Below are positions 11,996-30,077 of a stretch of DNA of 34,105 nt, in pieces. A program made the translations under genes and the position numbers. Below the pieces are notes generated by a model. The model did no database searches. It was not told the DNA's origin and saw nothing but the letters and a program-made list of their open reading frames with translations. Each line of letters begins with the position of its first letter. Position 1 is the stretch's first letter. Location of the stretch: positions 1-34,105 of the forward strand of contig JAKQWO010000006.1 of the NCBI GenBank assembly GCA_029561955.1. The letters run 5' to 3'. Source of the DNA: Candidatus Cloacimonadota bacterium (GTDB lineage: Bacteria > Cloacimonadota > Cloacimonadia > Cloacimonadales > Cloacimonadaceae).

Positions 11996-12092
11996 CTCCT
12001 TCCTTGCTTACCCGCAGGGCGATGCCGTGGCGATACTCGGGTTTTTCCCGAGTGGCACCGAGTAATCACCGGGCGGGTAAGCAAGGAAGGAG
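11996..12092. repeat. 97-bp palindromic element, copy A
   Basis: The ends form a perfect 20-bp terminal inverted repeat (11996-12015, starting CTCCTTCCTTGCTTACCC, and 12073-12092). The middle carries a second perfect hairpin, ACTCGGG-TTTTT-CCCGAGT. A near-identical copy (same interior with a handful of differences) lies in another spacer at 21894-21984. No transposase is present. It looks like a non-autonomous, MITE- or REP-like interspersed element. No clear target-site duplication was seen. Confidence 0.8.
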
Positions 12093-12106: not shown

Positions 12107-12131
12107 TGTAGCCGGCGGTCGCCGAACCGCC
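12107..12131 (-). repeat. TACA-flanked hairpin, copy 1
   Basis: Read on the minus strand: GGCGGT-TCGGCG-ACCGCC followed by GGC and TACA. A 6-bp perfect stem with a 6-nt loop. It belongs to a hairpin family with copies at 12292, 12321, 22057 and 22170, whose stem sequences differ but stay paired. Confidence 0.6.
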
Positions 12132-12291
12132 GCCAGCGAGCAAAGCTCGCTTCTCATATAGGGGTAAAGCTGCTATCTACTTTACTATTGCGAGTATCGG
12201 CAACTGCGTCAGTTCAGCAGTACGGTTGCTTACCCCATAACGACCCTTCCCATGCCGGCAGAGATGACACCTGCAGGCTGCGTTTAGATGC

Positions 12292-12315
12292 GGCGCTACG
12301 GCGAGCGCCCGTACA
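12292..12315 (+). repeat. TACA-flanked hairpin, copy 2
   Basis: GGCGCT-ACGGCG-AGCGCC followed by CG and TACA. Both stem arms differ from copy 1 in a matched way (CGGT/ACCG becomes CGCT/AGCG), preserving all six pairs. Confidence 0.6.
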
Positions 12316-12320
12316 TTTTT

Positions 12321-12345
12321 GGTCGCTCCGACGAGCGACTCTACA
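12321..12345 (+). repeat. TACA-flanked hairpin, copy 3
   Basis: GGTCGCTC-CGAC-GAGCGACT followed by C and TACA. The stem is seven Watson-Crick pairs plus a closing G-T. It is closely similar to copy 5 at 22170-22194. Confidence 0.6.
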
Positions 12346-12349
12346 TCAC

Positions 12350-12481
12350 ATAATCCGTGTAATTCGTGTAATTCGTGGGAAAAACAAAGAACTCCAGAGC
12401 TGTCCGGATCTTAGCTACCAGCACACCCATCCCCGAAACTTACGCAGCGACTGACTACTGACGACTGGCTACTGACTACTG
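12350..12481. repeat. Low-complexity intergenic repeats
   Basis: Two short simple-repeat stretches. Around 12353-12379 the unit GTGTAATTC occurs twice in tandem within ATCCGTGTAATTCGTGTAAT. Around 12447-12481 ACTACTGAC/ACGACTGGCT-type units repeat imperfectly up to the end of the VWA gene. Neither encodes anything recognisable. Confidence 0.5.
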
Positions 12482-12495
12482 GGCGACGCAGTCGC

Positions 12496-18538: not shown

Positions 18539-21433
18539 TTATTTTATCGAGGATACCCGATAAAACATGTGCTGTTGGCTCTGTCCCAGAGGATAGGTCA
18601 CAATCCCGTCTTCAGTATCATTGTCGATCACCGAGCCGGGGAAAGCCGTCCAAGGTCCCTCGGGTACTGTGGCATAGTAAACCTTGTAGCTGGTGGCATT
18701 GGGAACCTGGTTCCACTGCAGCGTGAGGGCGTTGTTCGGGCCAACCGTGAGGATCAGATTCACCGGCGGAGCCAGACCTTCATTGATGTAGATATGTCTG
18801 CTCCAGGCACTGCCGTTGTAAGCTTGCCAGACACCATCGACGAAAGGATCGGCGTTGTATTGTTCCAAATACTCATTTGTTTGCGCATGTCCGTTGAAAT
18901 ACCACTGTCCGGCACCAATCTCCGAGACCAGGACAAACCCTCCCTGGGAGGTCACAGTGCAGCCGGGATACAGCTTCAAATTCTGATCCACGTTCCCATT
19001 TATATAGGTTCTTTGGTTGGACATGGTGCCGTGGTTGTGCAGGTCGCCCTGAAGGTAGATCTGCAGGTTGTTCCAGCCAGGGTAATTTCGCAGGGTGCCA
19101 TAATTGTTCAGCCTGTTGGTTACATTGAGGGTGTAATGTGAGGAAGAATCATTTTGCAGCACGGCGTAATTGTGCATGATGCCGACCACCACTCCGCCTA
19201 AGCAGTTTGCTTCACCAGTGAACTTGGCTTCATCGACTACCAGATTTGACAGTCTGCAGCCGCCGGCAAAATTGAGTGTGGATGTGCTGTTTCCTTGGAT
19301 CACCGCGTTTTTCAGTTGACTCCCAGTAACGCTCAGGGTGTAGGAAGCGATTGAAGTGAGGAGGCGCAGGGTCCGCCCGCCAAGGTCCACCGTGCAACCA
19401 TTAAATCTGAGATTGGACATCAGTTGGATCGGCGTGTCGGTCACCTGGGCGGTAAAATTCTGGCAGGTTATAGCCGGCGCATTGGCTGACTGCCAGAGTA
19501 TTTGCCTCCGGTCGCCGCTGAGGTTGATGGTTTTATTGCTCAAGGTACCATAATTGTAGAGATCGCCAGCCAGATCAAGCGTCAGGGAATTATAGCCGGG
19601 GTAGTTCTGCAGGGTGCCATAGTTGTTCAGCCTGTTGGTTACATTGAGGGTGTAATGTGAGGCGGAATCATTTTGCAGCACGGCGTGATTGTGCATGATG
19701 CCAACCACCACTCCGCCCAAGCAGTTCGCTTCGCCGGTAAACTTGGCTTCATCGACTTCCAAGTCTAACAGTTGGCAGCCGTTGGCAAAATTGAGTGTGG
19801 ATGTGCTATTTCCTTGGATCACTGCGTTTTTCAGTTGATACCCAGTAACGCTCAGGATGTAGGAAGCGGTTGAAGTGAAGAGGCACAGGGTCCGCCCGCC
19901 GAGGTCAACCGTGCAACCGGTAAATCTGATATCAGACATCAGTTGGATCGGCATTGCGGCCTCCTGAGCGGTAAAAAACCGGCAGGTTATATCCGGTGAT
20001 TCGTTGTCCTGCCAGAGTATTTGCACTCCGTCGCTGCTGAGGTGGATGGTTTTATTGCTCAAGGTACCATAATTGTAGAGATCGCCGGCCAGATCAAGCG
20101 TCAGGGAATTATAGCCGGAGTAGTTCTGCAGGGTGCCATAATTGTTCAGCCTGTTGGTTACATTGAGGGTGTAATGTGAAGCGTAATTATTTTGCAGCAC
20201 AGCGTGATTGTGCATGATCCCAACCACCACTCCGCTTGAGCAGTTCGCTTCGCCGGTAAACTTGGCCTCATCGACTTCCAGATTTGAAAGTATGCAGCCA
20301 CCGGCAAAATTGAGTGTGGATGTGCTGTTTCCCTGGATCACTGCGTTTTTCAGTTGATACCCAGTAACGCTCAGGATGTAGGAAGCGGCTGAAGTGAAGA
20401 GGCGCAGGGTCCGCCCACCGAGGTCAACCGTGCAACCGGTAAATCTGATATCAGACATCAGTTGGATCGGCATTGCGGCCTCCTGAGCGGTAAAAAACTG
20501 GCAGGTTATATCCGGTGATTCGTTGTCCTGCCAGAGTATTTGCACTCCGTCGCTGCTGAGGTGTATGGTTTTATTGCTCAAGGTACCATAATTGTAGAGA
20601 TCGCCGGCCAGATTGATCGTCAGGGAATTATAGCCGGGGTAATTTCGCAGGGTGCCATAGTTGTTCAGCCTGTCGGTTACACTGAGGGTGTAATGTGAGG
20701 CGTAATTATTTTGCAGCACGGCGTGATTGTGCAGGGTGCCGATGCTCACTCCGCTGCCGATGTTGCAGCTTCCCTGGATATTAATCTCGTCTGCGGTCGT
20801 GTTCGACAGGTTCACGCTGCCCGTCAGGTTGAGGCTGCCCCCGTTGGTGCCCTGAATAGTCATGTTGGTGATTGTGCCGTTATTAATTGCCAGTTGACGG
20901 CCGCCGCCCAGATTCAGGGTTCCGCCGTTGAAGTTGATCTGGCAGTTTTCCAGGTTGAGGTCGGTGAGCGGGGTCACCGTACCAAGATTTGAAGTTTTGG
21001 TAAAGTTGGCAGGCTTGAAATTGCCGGAGGCATTGATGGACTGGTTTCCGGTGCCTGACATGATAAGTTGGTAGGGGATAAACTGGCTGCTGCTGACAAT
21101 GTTTCCCGCGCAGTTCAGCTTGAGATTGTACCAGCCGGGGTAGTTGTCCACCGTGCCATAGTTGAAAACGTTGCCGCCAACGGTCAACGAGATCATATTG
21201 ACGCTCGGATACAGCCTGGCGCCGGAGTAAACGGTAAGATTGTGACAGTTCAGGTTGGCATTCACGCTCACGGGACCATGCAGGAAAACGTTGTCTGCCT
21301 GACCCGGAACGATGCCGCCCTGCCAAGTGGAACTATTGGTCCAATTTCCGCCTTCTGGGGTGGAATGAATATCCACTGCCCAAGAGCTGGCAAATGCCGC
21401 TAATACAGCGATGATTGTCAAAAATAATTTCAT
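18539..21433 (-). CDS. Secreted surface protein with 519-bp tandem repeats
   Basis: A 964-residue exported protein; the signal peptide MKLFLTIIAVLAAFASSWA is clear. Residues 25-60 (GNWTNSSTWQGGIVPGQADN) match the start of many FCB surface proteins with G8-like or beta-helix modules. Residues 236-754 are three nearly identical 173-residue repeats with LNNYGTL, LAGDLYNYGTLSNKTI, VDLGGRTL and IQGNSTSTLNFA motifs. Residues 755-805 start a fourth unit, and about 63-235 form a diverged unit. A beta-solenoid is likely. Residues about 877-964 form a fibronectin III-like domain (LTLQWNQVPNATSYKVYY). No sorting domain follows, so T9SS export is unproven. It appears monocistronic. Confidence 0.75.
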   Translation of the reverse strand: MKLFLTIIAVLAAFASSWAVDIHSTPEGGNWTNSSTWQGGIVPGQADNVFLHGPVSVNANLNCHNLTVYSGARLYPSVNMISLTVGGNVFNYGTVDNYPGWYNLKLNCAGNIVSSSQFIPYQLIMSGTGNQSINASGNFKPANFTKTSNLGTVTPLTDLNLENCQINFNGGTLNLGGGRQLAINNGTITNMTIQGTNGGSLNLTGSVNLSNTTADEINIQGSCNIGSGVSIGTLHNHAVLQNNYASHYTLSVTDRLNNYGTLRNYPGYNSLTINLAGDLYNYGTLSNKTIHLSSDGVQILWQDNESPDITCQFFTAQEAAMPIQLMSDIRFTGCTVDLGGRTLRLFTSAASYILSVTGYQLKNAVIQGNSTSTLNFAGGCILSNLEVDEAKFTGEANCSSGVVVGIMHNHAVLQNNYASHYTLNVTNRLNNYGTLQNYSGYNSLTLDLAGDLYNYGTLSNKTIHLSSDGVQILWQDNESPDITCRFFTAQEAAMPIQLMSDIRFTGCTVDLGGRTLCLFTSTASYILSVTGYQLKNAVIQGNSTSTLNFANGCQLLDLEVDEAKFTGEANCLGGVVVGIMHNHAVLQNDSASHYTLNVTNRLNNYGTLQNYPGYNSLTLDLAGDLYNYGTLSNKTINLSGDRRQILWQSANAPAITCQNFTAQVTDTPIQLMSNLRFNGCTVDLGGRTLRLLTSIASYTLSVTGSQLKNAVIQGNSTSTLNFAGGCRLSNLVVDEAKFTGEANCLGGVVVGIMHNYAVLQNDSSSHYTLNVTNRLNNYGTLRNYPGWNNLQIYLQGDLHNHGTMSNQRTYINGNVDQNLKLYPGCTVTSQGGFVLVSEIGAGQWYFNGHAQTNEYLEQYNADPFVDGVWQAYNGSAWSRHIYINEGLAPPVNLILTVGPNNALTLQWNQVPNATSYKVYYATVPEGPWTAFPGSVIDNDTEDGIVTYPLGQSQQHMFYRVSSIK
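19020..20728 (-). repeat. Tandem 519-bp repeats, three full copies plus a partial
   Basis: Full units are 20210-20728, 19691-20209 and 19172-19690, with a partial fourth down to about 19020. The landmark GCCTGTTGGT recurs at 19111, 19630 and 20149 and as GCCTGTCGGT at 20668, exactly 519 nt apart each time. Long stretches are identical, including synonymous positions. The period equals 173 codons, so frame is kept. Confidence 0.93.
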
Positions 21434-21782: not shown

Positions 21783-21893
21783 TACTGGATTGACCCAGGC
21801 AGTGGGGTAAAAGTGGTTGAGCATAGTCCTATACTTGGGCGTCTGTTTTTCATCAAGGGCTGATGTGCAACCCCGAGTATTACACTCTTCTTC

Positions 21894-21984
21894 CTTCCTT
21901 GCTTACCCGCAGGGAGATGCCGTGCAGATACTCGGGTTTTTCCCGAGTATCACCGAGTAATCACCGGGCGGCTAAGCAAGGAAG
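21894..21984. repeat. 91-bp palindromic element, copy B
   Basis: Terminal arms CTTCCTTGCTTACCCGC (21894-21910) and 21968-21984 pair at 16 of 17 positions. The interior holds the same ACTCGGG-TTTTT-CCCGAGT hairpin and the same CACCGAGTAATCACCGGGCG stretch as copy A at 11996-12092. The single arm mismatch and the few interior differences show the copies are not identical, so this is not an assembly duplicate. Confidence 0.8.
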
Positions 21985-22056: not shown

Positions 22057-22080
22057 TGTACGGGCGGTCGCTGAACCGCC
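22057..22080 (-). repeat. TACA-flanked hairpin, copy 4
   Basis: On the minus strand: GGCGGT-TCAGCG-ACCGCC then CG and TACA. It differs from copy 1 by one loop base and in the spacer before TACA. Confidence 0.6.
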
Positions 22081-22169
22081 GTTTGCCGGAAAGCAGGAGA
22101 AACCAAGCCGCGCTGAGAAACGATAATGGGAGAGTTTTGTGGAATAGCTGGGAGGCAGAGGTAGGCAGT

Positions 22170-22194
22170 GGTCGCTCCAGCGAGCGACCCTACA
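22170..22194 (+). repeat. TACA-flanked hairpin, copy 5
   Basis: GGTCGCTC-CAGC-GAGCGACC then C and TACA: an 8-bp perfect stem. Its TACA is directly followed by another hairpin, GGCGGT-ATGGCA-ACCGCC (22197-22214), which may be a diverged member facing the other way. Confidence 0.6.
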
Positions 22195-22221
22195 GCGGCG
22201 GTATGGCAACCGCCGGCCACC

Positions 22222-25217: not shown

Positions 25218-28200
25218 TTACTTCACCGAGATTTTGATCACGTACTCGGTCTTGGTTACGGAATCGCTGGCGGTGACTCTGGCAAAATAGGTGCCACGAC
25301 CAACCTTCTGGTTGTCTGAGTTTGTCAAATCCCAAGGGACTTCGATGAGGTTGGATGTGGTTGTGGGCACGGTGAGGGTTTTGATCTTCTTGCCGGCAAA
25401 GTCGTAGATGATGATGGTGGCAGTGACGTTGTCGTTACGCGTGAGCACCAGTCTGAAACGGGTGGCATCAGTGGCTGGGTTGGGATAGGCGTGGCTGGCA
25501 CTGCTGATCTCCAGAGCCTGGGAAAGATAGACCACCACGGTGCTGGAGCTGGGTAAGCTCTCTACATCGTCATAAACCGCCGTCACGCGATACTCGTAGG
25601 AGCGGTTGATCTGGATGTCGTAGTCGTCAAAATACCAATCTTCACCGATCTTTTGGCTCAAGGGGATGAGTGAGCTGTTGAGCCTGGTGAAGCTGCTCTC
25701 ACTCAAGGCACGCCGGTCGATATTGAAGCCCTGCAGACCTCGGATCGGGGTCGCAAAGTTCCAAAGGACGCGGATGTAGCCGCCGTGCGTGAAGGCTCTC
25801 AGGTCGATGGGAATTTCCAATACGGAGTAGGTTTCGGAGCTCGCTGCGCTTTCGATCCAGTCAGGTTTGAAAGCCTTGGCGGTGATCACTTTATCGATGG
25901 TGAAGTGGGGGATTTCCACAGTTTCGCCCTCAGCCAAGATGGGTGAATCCTGGGTGGGGATGCTGCCATCGGTAGTGTAGTGGATGGTTGCACCGGGGAT
26001 TTCACAGGTGATGGAAACCGCTGGAGGTTGAGCATAGAGGCCACCGGGGAGGCTGAATACAGGAGAGGGCAGGGTGCCGGTGATCGTGTAAACAGCAGAG
26101 CTGATCTCGCTGGAAACCCAGCCTTTCATAAAGCCCTTTACCTTGATGGTGGTGGAGCTGTTGAGAGGCAGGGAAATGGGTGCCTGGTAAGCGGGTGAGC
26201 TCTCGGTGGGCTCGCTGCCATCCAGCGTGTATCTGAGCGTGGCATCTGCGGGCAAGGTGGCAGGTGCCAAGGAGACGGTCTGAGCACTCTGATAGGTTCC
26301 GGGTGCAGGTGTAAACATCACTGCAGGCAACTGAACCTGACCGGTGACCTGGTAGATACCGGTGACGATCTCACCTGCATCCCAATCTGTCACATAAGCT
26401 CTGGCCTTGAGGGTGAGCGAGCTGTTGAGGGCAACTTCTATGGGGCTGCTGTAAATTGGTGAGGATTCGTCAGGATCGCTGCCATCGGTGGTGTAACGGA
26501 TAGTACCACCTGCGGGGATAGTGTTGGAGACGATCTCGACCATTTGAGCGGTGGTATAGGGGCCGGGCGGAGGGTCAAACACGGGGTCTGTCAATGCTGC
26601 CTGACCGGTCATATGATAGTTTGCCGTGTAGGTGGGGCTGGGGGTCCAGTCGGTGAGGAAAGCTTTGGCCTTCACCTGAATATCTCGATCCAACTGCAGC
26701 AGAATGGGTCTATTATAGATTTGAGACGACTGGGTGGGATCATTGCCATCCAGGGTGTAGCGGACTGTGGCTCCAGCGGGAACGGGTGTATTGATAGTGA
26801 GCATCTGGACTGTGCTGTAAGTTCCACTGGGAGGCGTGAATACCGCTTCGGGAATCTCTACCTGCCCGGTGATGGTGTAGTTTGCCAGATACACTTCAGA
26901 AGGCAGCCAGTTGGTGGCAAAAGCGCGGACTTTGATCTGGGTGCTGCTGGAAACTGAGATGGGGCCTGTGTAGACGTGTGAAGCGGTGGTGGGATCTGTG
27001 CCATCCAGAGTATAGCGAACCACTGCGCCTACGCCTGCGGGTTGGGTGGTGTTGATCACCACGTTTTGAGCTGTGGTGTAAATACCAGCGGCGGGCGTAA
27101 AAACGGGACTGGCAATGGTAAGCTGACCGGTGACGGTGTATTGGGCGGTATAGGTCACACTGGGCGTCCAATCCGGCTTGAAAGCCTTCACCTTGATGGT
27201 CATAGTGGTATTGAGTGGCACAGGGATGGGTGCGCTATAGATGGGCGAGCTTTCTGTGGGCTCGGTTCCATTGGTGGTATAGCGGATGGTGGCTCCGGGC
27301 TGAATGGTGCTGTTGACAGTCACACTTTGGGCTGTGGTGTAGATTCCGGGCGAAGGATCAAACACAGGGGTGATGAAGCTCAGTTGACCGGTGATGTTGT
27401 AGATGCCGGTGATGGTTTCACTGGGAATCCAGCCATCCTTGAAGCCTTTCACTTTCAGCGTGGTAACTTGACCGGCAGGGATAGTGATGGGACTGATGTA
27501 GGCGGCAGAACTCAGGGAGGGTTCGCTGCCATCCAGAGTGTATCTGAGCGTGGCATCTACAGGTAAGGTGGCAGGTGACAGGGAGACGGTCTGAGCACTC
27601 TGATAGGTTCCGGGTGCAGGTGTAAACAAGGCTAAGGGCAGCTCGACCTGTCCAGTCATATTGTAGATTGCGGTGTAGACGGGGCTGGGCTCCCAATCCG
27701 TTTTATAAGCTCTCACCTTGAGAGTGAAGCTGGTATTGAGGGGTAGGTTTATCGCTTGCGTATACTGGACTGAGCTTTGGGTGGGATCCGAGCCATCGGT
27801 GGTATAATAGATGGTGGCATCAGCCGGATAAGGTGTGTTGACGGTGACCTGCTGGGGCGTGGTGTAGGTGCCGGCAGCAGGTGTGAACACGGGATCGTGG
27901 ATGACGACGGAGCCAGTGATGATGTAAGTATTGGTCTCGATGTCGCTGGGCAGCCAATCGGTCTTGAAGGCACGAGCCTTGATCGTGGTGGTGCTATTCA
28001 GCGGCAACGCTATAGGCTGGAGGTATCTATAGGAATCACGGGTGGGGTTGCTGCCGTCTGTGGTGTAATAGATGCTGGCATCTTGGGTGGCGGTTTCCAA
28101 ACTCAGGCTCTGAGGCGTCTGATAGGTTCCTGCGGGCAGACTGAAGATCACCTCGGCCACGGTTCCGGTCACCAAATAGTAAGCTGAGGCCACTGCGGAA

Positions 28201-30077
28201 GGATTGTAACCATCCAAGTAGGCGATGGCTTTGATGAAAAGGCTGGAATTGCTGGGGATGGGTATCGCTTGAGTATAGACGGTGCCCGAGGTGGGTGTGG
28301 GATCGCTGCCGTCCGTTGTATAGCGGATGGAGGCTCCGGTGGTGGTGGTGGAGAGGGTCAGGCTCTGGGGCACATAATAGGTTCCGGAGGGGAGCGAGAA
28401 GCTCACAGCAGAAACGGTGGGAACGATGATATTGATCACATAAGCGCTGGAAATCACCTGGGAGGGGTTCATACCTGCTTTGTAGGCGATGGCTTTGATG
28501 TTGACGCTTTCGTCTACGGTGATGTGATCGGTGTAGAGTGTTCCGTGGGTTTCTGATGGATCGCTTCCGTCGGTGGTATAGCGGATTGAGGCACCGTCGG
28601 TGGCAGTGGCAATGCTCACCAGTTTAGGCTCGTTATACACTCCAGCAGGAGGTGTGAAAGTAGGAGAGTCCACAGTTTGGACTGGGATCACGATAAAGTA
28701 TTGAGCTACGGCGATCTCGGAAGGATTGTATCCGGCTTTGAAGGCTCTGGCTTTCACCGTGGTGTTTGTACTTACCTCAAAGGGTGCGGTGTAGGTGAAG
28801 CCATCGGTCAGGGTGGGCTCGCTGTTATCTGTGGTGTAGCGGATCGTGGCTCCCGGTGTGGGAGTGCTGATCAACACATCAATGGCGCTGGTGTAGAGCC
28901 CGCTGACAGGCTGGATGCTCAGAGCTGCCACATTCGGTATGGGAATATCAATGGTGTAAGTGGCAGATGTGACAGGAGAATTGTGCCAGTTAATCCTCTG
29001 AGCCAAAGCCGTGATCGTCGTAGTCTGATTTATCACGATGGGGTTACTGGGATTGTAGAGCAGGCTGGATCCTACAGTTGGGGAAGTTCCATCTAAAGTG
29101 TACCAGATAGCTGCGGCAGGGGTGGGTGTGCTCAAGGTCACGGTCTGAGCCGTATAGTAAGTTCCTTGAGCTGGGCTGAAGCTCACCGGGCTGTTGTGCA
29201 GGTTGTAGATGGCTGTCTGGACTGCTGAAGGAGGATAGTTTACCAGATAGGCTCTGGCTTTGAGAGTGGTATTGCGGTTGATCAAAATAGGGATGGTGTA
29301 GAGTGTTCCGTTTGTAGGGGAAGGCTCGCTGCCGTTTGTGGTATAGTAGATAGTAGCCACCGCGGGAACAGCGCTGATGCTCACGCTGAAGGTGTTGTAG
29401 TAGTTGCCCGAAGCGACGCTGAAGAAGGGGCCGGCGACGGGAGGATTGATCACGTAGGTATGCGTCACGATAGCGGAGGTGATCCAGCCATCCAGATAGG
29501 CAATGGCTTTCACCACGGTCGCTTGGGTGGTATTGTTGATCAGAATGGGTGTGCCGGAATAGATTTGGCCAACGTTTTCGCTGGGATTGCTTCCATCTGT
29601 GGTGTAGCGGATGTTGGCTCCGGGGATGTCCACGCTCAGGGTCAGGTGTTGGGGTGTGGCAAAGGATCCGGAAAGCACGCTGAAGGTGGGATTGGCCACT
29701 CTGAAGAAGTATTCAGCGCTTCCGACATCTGAATCCGGATAGCCATCTTTGACGGCAAAAGCCTTGATCACGGTGTGTTCATTTACCGTTATAGGAGTGG
29801 AATATACGCTGCTGGTCTCATCCGGAATGCTGCCATCGGTGGTGTAATAGATGGTAGCATCGGCGGGAACAGCATGGATACTCACATCCACGGGAGCATC
29901 GTAATAGCCCTCAATGGGCGTAAAGCTGGGTGTGCTCACCTGGCGGTTTTGCCTCTCGATGCGCTCTGTTGCTTCCGTTGTTATCCTATCGGAGCGCAAT
30001 CCGAGAAACTTCTGTGCTTGTGCAGATAACCCAATTACGGAGCTCAGCACAAGCAAAAACGCTATGACTCGTTTCAT
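25218..30077 (-). CDS. Giant T9SS-type secreted protein with 16 CHB_HEX_C-like repeats
   Basis: A 1619-residue protein. Signal peptide 1-20 (LSSVIGLSAQ). Residues 48-1423 are 16 repeats of about 85 residues with the pattern F-x-P-x-x-G-x-Y ... A-x-I-x-YTTDGS-x-P-T ... PI ... IKA-x-A ... W-x-P-S ... Y, the chitobiase/beta-hexosaminidase C-terminal domain family (PF13290-like). Residues 1424-1519 look like a fibronectin III domain (YIRVLWNF ... YEYRVTAVYDD). Residues about 1525-1619 (HAYPNPATDATRF ... KVGRGTYFARV ... IKISVK) are a FlgD-like type A sorting domain, marking T9SS export and surface attachment. No catalytic domain is present; it is probably an adhesin- or stalk-like surface protein. 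First gene of the operon with the PorV-like and PorE-like genes. Confidence 0.88.
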   Translation of the reverse strand: MKRVIAFLLVLSSVIGLSAQAQKFLGLRSDRITTEATERIERQNRQVSTPSFTPIEGYYDAPVDVSIHAVPADATIYYTTDGSIPDETSSVYSTPITVNEHTVIKAFAVKDGYPDSDVGSAEYFFRVANPTFSVLSGSFATPQHLTLSVDIPGANIRYTTDGSNPSENVGQIYSGTPILINNTTQATVVKAIAYLDGWITSAIVTHTYVINPPVAGPFFSVASGNYYNTFSVSISAVPAVATIYYTTNGSEPSPTNGTLYTIPILINRNTTLKARAYLVNYPPSAVQTAIYNLHNSPVSFSPAQGTYYTAQTVTLSTPTPAAAIWYTLDGTSPTVGSSLLYNPSNPIVINQTTTITALAQRINWHNSPVTSATYTIDIPIPNVAALSIQPVSGLYTSAIDVLISTPTPGATIRYTTDNSEPTLTDGFTYTAPFEVSTNTTVKARAFKAGYNPSEIAVAQYFIVIPVQTVDSPTFTPPAGVYNEPKLVSIATATDGASIRYTTDGSDPSETHGTLYTDHITVDESVNIKAIAYKAGMNPSQVISSAYVINIIVPTVSAVSFSLPSGTYYVPQSLTLSTTTTGASIRYTTDGSDPTPTSGTVYTQAIPIPSNSSLFIKAIAYLDGYNPSAVASAYYLVTGTVAEVIFSLPAGTYQTPQSLSLETATQDASIYYTTDGSNPTRDSYRYLQPIALPLNSTTTIKARAFKTDWLPSDIETNTYIITGSVVIHDPVFTPAAGTYTTPQQVTVNTPYPADATIYYTTDGSDPTQSSVQYTQAINLPLNTSFTLKVRAYKTDWEPSPVYTAIYNMTGQVELPLALFTPAPGTYQSAQTVSLSPATLPVDATLRYTLDGSEPSLSSAAYISPITIPAGQVTTLKVKGFKDGWIPSETITGIYNITGQLSFITPVFDPSPGIYTTAQSVTVNSTIQPGATIRYTTNGTEPTESSPIYSAPIPVPLNTTMTIKVKAFKPDWTPSVTYTAQYTVTGQLTIASPVFTPAAGIYTTAQNVVINTTQPAGVGAVVRYTLDGTDPTTASHVYTGPISVSSSTQIKVRAFATNWLPSEVYLANYTITGQVEIPEAVFTPPSGTYSTVQMLTINTPVPAGATVRYTLDGNDPTQSSQIYNRPILLQLDRDIQVKAKAFLTDWTPSPTYTANYHMTGQAALTDPVFDPPPGPYTTAQMVEIVSNTIPAGGTIRYTTDGSDPDESSPIYSSPIEVALNSSLTLKARAYVTDWDAGEIVTGIYQVTGQVQLPAVMFTPAPGTYQSAQTVSLAPATLPADATLRYTLDGSEPTESSPAYQAPISLPLNSSTTIKVKGFMKGWVSSEISSAVYTITGTLPSPVFSLPGGLYAQPPAVSITCEIPGATIHYTTDGSIPTQDSPILAEGETVEIPHFTIDKVITAKAFKPDWIESAASSETYSVLEIPIDLRAFTHGGYIRVLWNFATPIRGLQGFNIDRRALSESSFTRLNSSLIPLSQKIGEDWYFDDYDIQINRSYEYRVTAVYDDVESLPSSSTVVVYLSQALEISSASHAYPNPATDATRFRLVLTRNDNVTATIIIYDFAGKKIKTLTVPTTTSNLIEVPWDLTNSDNQKVGRGTYFARVTASDSVTKTEYVIKISVK
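25809..29936 (-). repeat. 16 diverged in-frame repeats of about 250-265 bp
   Basis: Protein-level repeats of 82-88 residues run without linkers through most of the gene. DNA identity between most units is modest, so they are old. The exception is a segment of units 10 and 15: ATCTGAGCGTGGCATCT at 26231 and 27542, continuing nearly identically for about 90 nt, 1311 nt (five units) apart. Units 8-15 share the ending (I/M/V)TG(Q/S/T), which units 1-6 lack, so the array grew in at least two phases. Confidence 0.85.

Follow-up and report, generated by a model that had tools for sequence, protein, structure and literature searches.

The hairpins analyzed here are very probably REP sequences of the GTAG-tagged super-family, with the tag GTA(C/G), that were spread through a Cloacimonadota lineage by a RAYT. 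The window, 34,105 nt long, is the whole of contig C18 of genome G000 (2.13 Mb, 81 contigs, 99.5% complete), which belongs to an uncultured bacterium. We compared G000 with five congeners of the same genus (G001–G005) and with other members of the family, including G018 from another genus. G000 was sampled as stretches of ~340–370 kb and was also searched as a whole genome.

Hairpins in the window

A preliminary description of the window placed five hairpins beside TACA at 12107, 12292, 12321, 22057, and 22170. We scanned for TACA lying no more than 3 nt from a perfect stem of 6 bp or longer, which recovered all five and no others: 12113–12132 (−), 12292–12309 (+), 12322–12339 (+), 22063–22080 (−), and 22170–22189 (+). 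The stems were 6–8 bp, the loops 4–6 nt, and the gaps to TACA 1–2 nt. In Markov shuffles of the window the chance level was 0.8 sites, with a maximum of 2, and stems of at least 7 bp, of which the window had three, were found at a level of 0.15. Read on the opposite strand, the TACA flank becomes the 5' foot of a 25-nt unit with the form TGTA-(C/G)-G-stem-loop-stem and small variations, and a degenerate sixth unit was found:

12107–12132, + strand: REP unit, a variant with one extra base; foot TGTAG, then CC and the hairpin CGGCGGT/ACCGCCG; 23.7 bits
12291–12315, − strand: REP unit TGTACGGGCGCTCGCCGTAGCGCCG, first of a tandem pair; 37.7 bits
12321–12345, − strand: REP unit TGTAGAGTCGCTCGTCGGAGCGACC, second of the tandem pair; 32.2 bits
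22057–22081, + strand: REP unit TGTACGGGCGGTCGCTGAACCGCCG; 41.7 bits
22170–22194, − strand: REP unit TGTAGGGTCGCTCGCTGGAGCGACC; 38.2 bits
22196–22220, − strand: sixth REP unit, degenerate; damaged foot GTGGC, stem GGCGGT/ACCGCC

The units at 22057–22081 and 22170–22194 lie 88 nt apart with their feet outward, as a REPIN-like pair. The gene for ribosomal protein S10 lies directly before the first hairpin site (12107 region). An OmpA-family gene has its end just after the second site (22057 region). A search of the window against Rfam gave no family match.

The window also holds other repeats. A second family of dispersed palindromes of ~90 nt, CTTCCTTGCTTACCCGCAGGG...GGGCGGSTAAGCAAGGAAG, was found at 11997–12092 and 21892–21984; both palindromes were strongly folded (z of −8.6 and −7.3), and for the family, which often adjoins REPs, ~20 copies were counted in ~370 kb of G000, and the G003 loci examined had one. 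Two more short dispersed repeats, of the TAATTCGTGTAATTCGTGG and TGACTACTGACGACTGGC types, lie beside REPs at 12345–12390 and 12440–12490, and each had several further copies in the G000 sample. Large ORFs at 18539–21433 (519-nt period) and 25218–30077 (~260-nt units) are built of repeats.

Copy number and distribution among genomes

The genome-wide search for stem-loop-TACA that had been proposed as a check yielded matches above chance. In 308 kb of other G000 contigs we found 22 sites where 10.3 were expected (10 vs 2.0 for stems of at least 7 bp), and 20 of the 22 were recognizably of the same family as the window hairpins. A 25-nt profile in which the variable stem positions were left open had 66 matches in 342 kb of G000, compared with one in shuffled sequence. 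Close copies in the G000 sample numbered 37, with 28 distinct sequences. A strict stem pattern matched the window's own two copies only; it missed other copies because the stem varies, and a covariance model was therefore used instead. Copy numbers from this model are lower bounds, with 150 candidates scored: G000 had at least 161 copies at E ≤ 0.01 and at least 182 at E ≤ 1, while G002 and G003 had at least 110 and 115 at E ≤ 0.01.

The model found no copies in G001, G004, and G005. Within the genus, the repeat thus occurred in G000, G002, and G003, a RAYT in G002 and G003, and neither of them in the other three genomes. Across the rest of the family, the same model gave 109 copies in G018 and at most 18 in the remaining genomes; a link between copy number and RAYT presence at this level is only suggestive, because the RAYTs of other lineages adjoin different hairpins.

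Arrangement and gene context

Some repeat units stood alone, and others formed tandems or REPIN-like inverted pairs. Among oppositely oriented neighbours, nine pairs had outward feet (39–158 nt apart) against one with inward feet, and same-direction tandem neighbours were frequent, mostly 1–43 nt apart. At least 31 of 49 copies lay outside ORFs of at least 100 aa, although these ORFs cover 87% of the sequence sampled. Of those that hold the remaining 18 copies, several sit in intergenic gaps and are probably not genes. For 27 intergenic copies in the sample both neighbours were called, and 14 of these copies lay between convergent ORFs. At two places, L101 1530–1554 in G000 and L046 5253–5277 in G003, a REP unit forms the end of the upstream gene, namely its final codons (CTGGR) and its stop.

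Covariation of the stem

The stems had been described as changing in matched pairs. Among the 37 close copies this held at two positions: position 8–23 was G-C or T-A and position 11–20 was G-C or C-G; each of the four possible combinations was seen. Pairing was kept in 30 of 37 copies at 8–23 (shuffle mean 17.1; one of 20,000 shuffles as high) and in 34 of 37 at 11–20 (shuffle mean 18.4; none of 20,000 as high), and a per-pair count agreed with covariation and dropped once the partner position was slid. The picture of many independent compensations was not borne out, as the variation consists mostly of two binary switches recombined over subfamilies of related copies and therefore of few independent events. 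One exchange could be followed between genomes: where the window hairpin at 22196–22215 has GGCGGT/ACCGCC, its G002 ortholog has GGCGCT/AGCGCC, and the first hairpin beside it is otherwise identical. This G-C/C-G swap is the exchange of a pair at one place, through mutation or unit replacement. The foot was kept as GTA(C/G), being GTAC in 27 and GTAG in 9 of the 37 close copies.

RAYT transposases in congeners

The search for a TnpA-REP/RAYT-like transposase, also proposed beforehand, found a RAYT in the congeners G002 and G003 and none in the window's genome. Pfam Y1_Tnp matched 221-aa proteins in both congeners, and these proteins matched NF047646, the model for REP-associated tyrosine transposases, at 1e-17 to 1e-20, although just below its curated cut-off. 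In an alignment of twelve relatives, the best solved relative was TnpA-REP 4er8 (E of 6e-11), with the HxH motif and the catalytic Tyr aligned. By HUH motif, catalytic Tyr, and family profile, the G002 and G003 protein is a RAYT.

In G003, one RAYT gene (L046 5886–6551, on contig C20) is flanked by the present repeats in a REPtron arrangement; it lies in a cluster of these hairpins, and the next unit starts 10 nt past its stop. The other G003 RAYT gene lies in a cluster of the loop variant TGTATGGTCGCTTGCCATAGCGACC, and in G002 the nearest covariance-model match is ~500 nt from the RAYT. RAYT genes of other Cloacimonadota adjoin different TGTA-tagged hairpins (L057 4756–5769; L043 1436 and 2165; L061 5519 and 5570), which suggests that RAYT/REP pairs are lineage-specific in the phylum.

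Orphan REPs in G000

Neither a Pfam Y1_Tnp search, which detected no Y1 protein of any kind, nor a RAYT profile search found a RAYT in G000. A weak RAYT-like match (C33, E of 0.2) was spurious, lying inside a presumed polynucleotide phosphorylase gene. We compared two of the three RAYT loci with G000; the third is near a G003 contig end. At the C20 locus, G000 is contiguous and 83–88% identical on both sides, with the REPs kept and the RAYT absent: between REPs on both sides, G003 has the RAYT (L046 5253–6762) and G000 an Nmad3-domain gene (L101 1530–3070, contig C22). The RAYT locus of G002 spans 2.7 kb; the corresponding stretch of G000 is 595 nt long and contains REP-matching sequence. Both loci run through in G000, and the RAYT is therefore missing there and not hidden in gaps. 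The RAYT of G000 may have been lost, or it may be missing from the assembly, with a gap elsewhere being possible. G000 thus carries an orphan REP population and not a REPtron. Since it has no detectable RAYT, mobility there is either past or through an enzyme not seen, and its copies are probably now immobile remnants.

Evidence for movement

In G003, ~210 nt with REP units interrupt a conserved gene for a radical SAM protein and leave its reading frame intact (L092 5695–5952, ~70 codons). This segment was absent in G000, G002, G001, and G004 and is therefore a derived insertion in G003, which shows that REP-bearing segments insert. The insertion is a composite and does not define the exact mobile unit. 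Further differences were found between G000 and G002: intergenic region A had large unaligned blocks between flanks 83–92% identical, and in region B an additional REP-bearing segment was present in G002 relative to G000.

Alternative explanations and proposed mechanism

We considered three other explanations. Chance stems near TACA can practically be dismissed: a window of this size should by chance hold about one 6-bp stem near TACA, but sequence, stem, loop, and foot are common to well over a hundred copies in three congeners and to none in three others, and the profile matches (66 vs 1) together with the covariance-model counts refute chance. The hairpins could instead be retained for a function in RNA (as terminators, as attenuators, or to protect 3' ends), their spread being incidental, which we consider unlikely. 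The mostly intergenic copies, 14 of 27 between convergent ORFs, and the T-rich sequence that follows the unit at 12292–12309 would fit such a role, but the remaining window units have no T tract, the repeat is absent in three congeners that have the orthologous genes, one array lies inside a coding gene, and a terminator needs neither a conserved foot nor a conserved loop. As the main explanation, an intrinsic terminator was rejected, since a G+C-rich stem with a direct T tract was seen in just one of five units; an extra RNA role alongside spreading by RAYT may exist.

It is also very unlikely that another enzyme, such as an IS200/IS605 transposase or an integron-type recombinase, moves the units and that the proximity of RAYT is coincidental. 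Although the window's genome has no RAYT and IS200-type Y1 proteins occur in relatives, G004 included, among the Y1 enzymes, which the search covered, G004 combines an IS200-type one with zero repeat copies and G000 has none of any kind, and the G003 RAYT genes lie inside hairpin clusters.

We therefore return to REPs spread by RAYT. Structure-guided mobility by a TnpA-REP/RAYT-like enzyme, as the preliminary description had suggested, is supported by the high number of dispersed structured copies, the covariation, the outward orientation of paired feet, the RAYT genes within the same hairpins in a congener, and the insertion confined to G003, and we infer that RAYT moved the units; in the window's own genome, which has no detectable RAYT, this mobility would be past or due to an unseen enzyme. 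Besides that absence, GTAC as the main tag, the sub-cut-off NF047646 match, the ~500-nt distance in G002, the frequent tandems, and the composite nature of the insertion count against this reading. RAYT, a single-strand HUH (Y1) endonuclease, would recognize the folded hairpin together with its 5' GTAS foot in single-stranded DNA, make a nick next to it, and carry the unit or pair to new sites. Stem pairs would be kept because, as we propose, only folded units get copied. The cleavage chemistry is taken by analogy from TnpA-REP studies in E. coli, Stenotrophomonas, and Marinomonas (PMC8266576), and strand-specific REP binding and cleavage by the G002 and G003 RAYT are putative. Tag and hairpin both matter to TnpA-REP, and some of the enzymes tolerate tag changes (PMC8266576), which would fit the GTAC tag.

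Relation to known REP/RAYT systems

Di Nocera et al. (2013, PMC3733652) describe GTAG-tagged REPs as palindromes of 20–40 nt with an unpaired tetranucleotide at one end and RAYT neighbours; these REPs form dimers and clusters, and their sub-families differ in complementary residues of the stem. The REPtron arrangement, including repeat-specific RAYTs, is described there as well, and tandem (head-to-tail) REPs are reported to be rare in most genomes. Like those REPs, the present repeat is a high-copy short palindrome, mostly between genes, with complementary stem changes, clusters, and RAYT neighbours, but unlike the REPs described there it has mainly a GTAC tag and frequent tandems. Cloacimonadota is not among the phyla named in that survey, and the likeness is by described features, not by its 24 consensus sequences. 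REPINs (Bertels and Rainey 2011, PMC3116915) consist of two inverted REPs around a spacer and lie mostly outside genes and near RAYTs, and the doublets found here share these properties; unlike in REPINs, the spacers vary from 39 to 158 nt and tandem and single units are as common as doublets, the likeness being by outward feet and not by a palindromic spacer or larger hairpin. The congeners' RAYT resembles TnpA-REP (4er8; PMC8266576) in its aligned HxH and catalytic Tyr and in the placing of the G003 gene among cognate hairpins, but differs from 4er8 in its 221 aa, with ~95 residues ahead of the matched domain, and in its absence from the window's genome.

We found no relevant publication on REPs or RAYTs in Cloacimonadota in a literature search. 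The repeat stays within the REP/RAYT class despite variations in its tag (GTAC), its frequent tandems, and the exchange of RAYT for Nmad3 between REPs. Unusual by comparison are this tag, the orphan state, and the presence of the Nmad3 gene between REPs at the position of the G003 RAYT. A further reading is tentative and rather doubtful: a GTAC-tagged REP/RAYT branch in Cloacimonadota whose REP arrays enter coding genes in frame and also act as exchange boundaries, so that entire genes, such as RAYT in one species and the Nmad3-domain gene of another, are swapped between the same flanking REPs.

Our findings extend REP/RAYT systems to a phylum outside the main survey consulted (PMC3733652). 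One genus offers a natural comparison of genomes with RAYT and repeats, with repeats but no RAYT, and with neither, which makes it possible to test how a REP population fares after loss of its transposase and whether the cleavage site is set by the fourth tag base (GTAC or GTAG).
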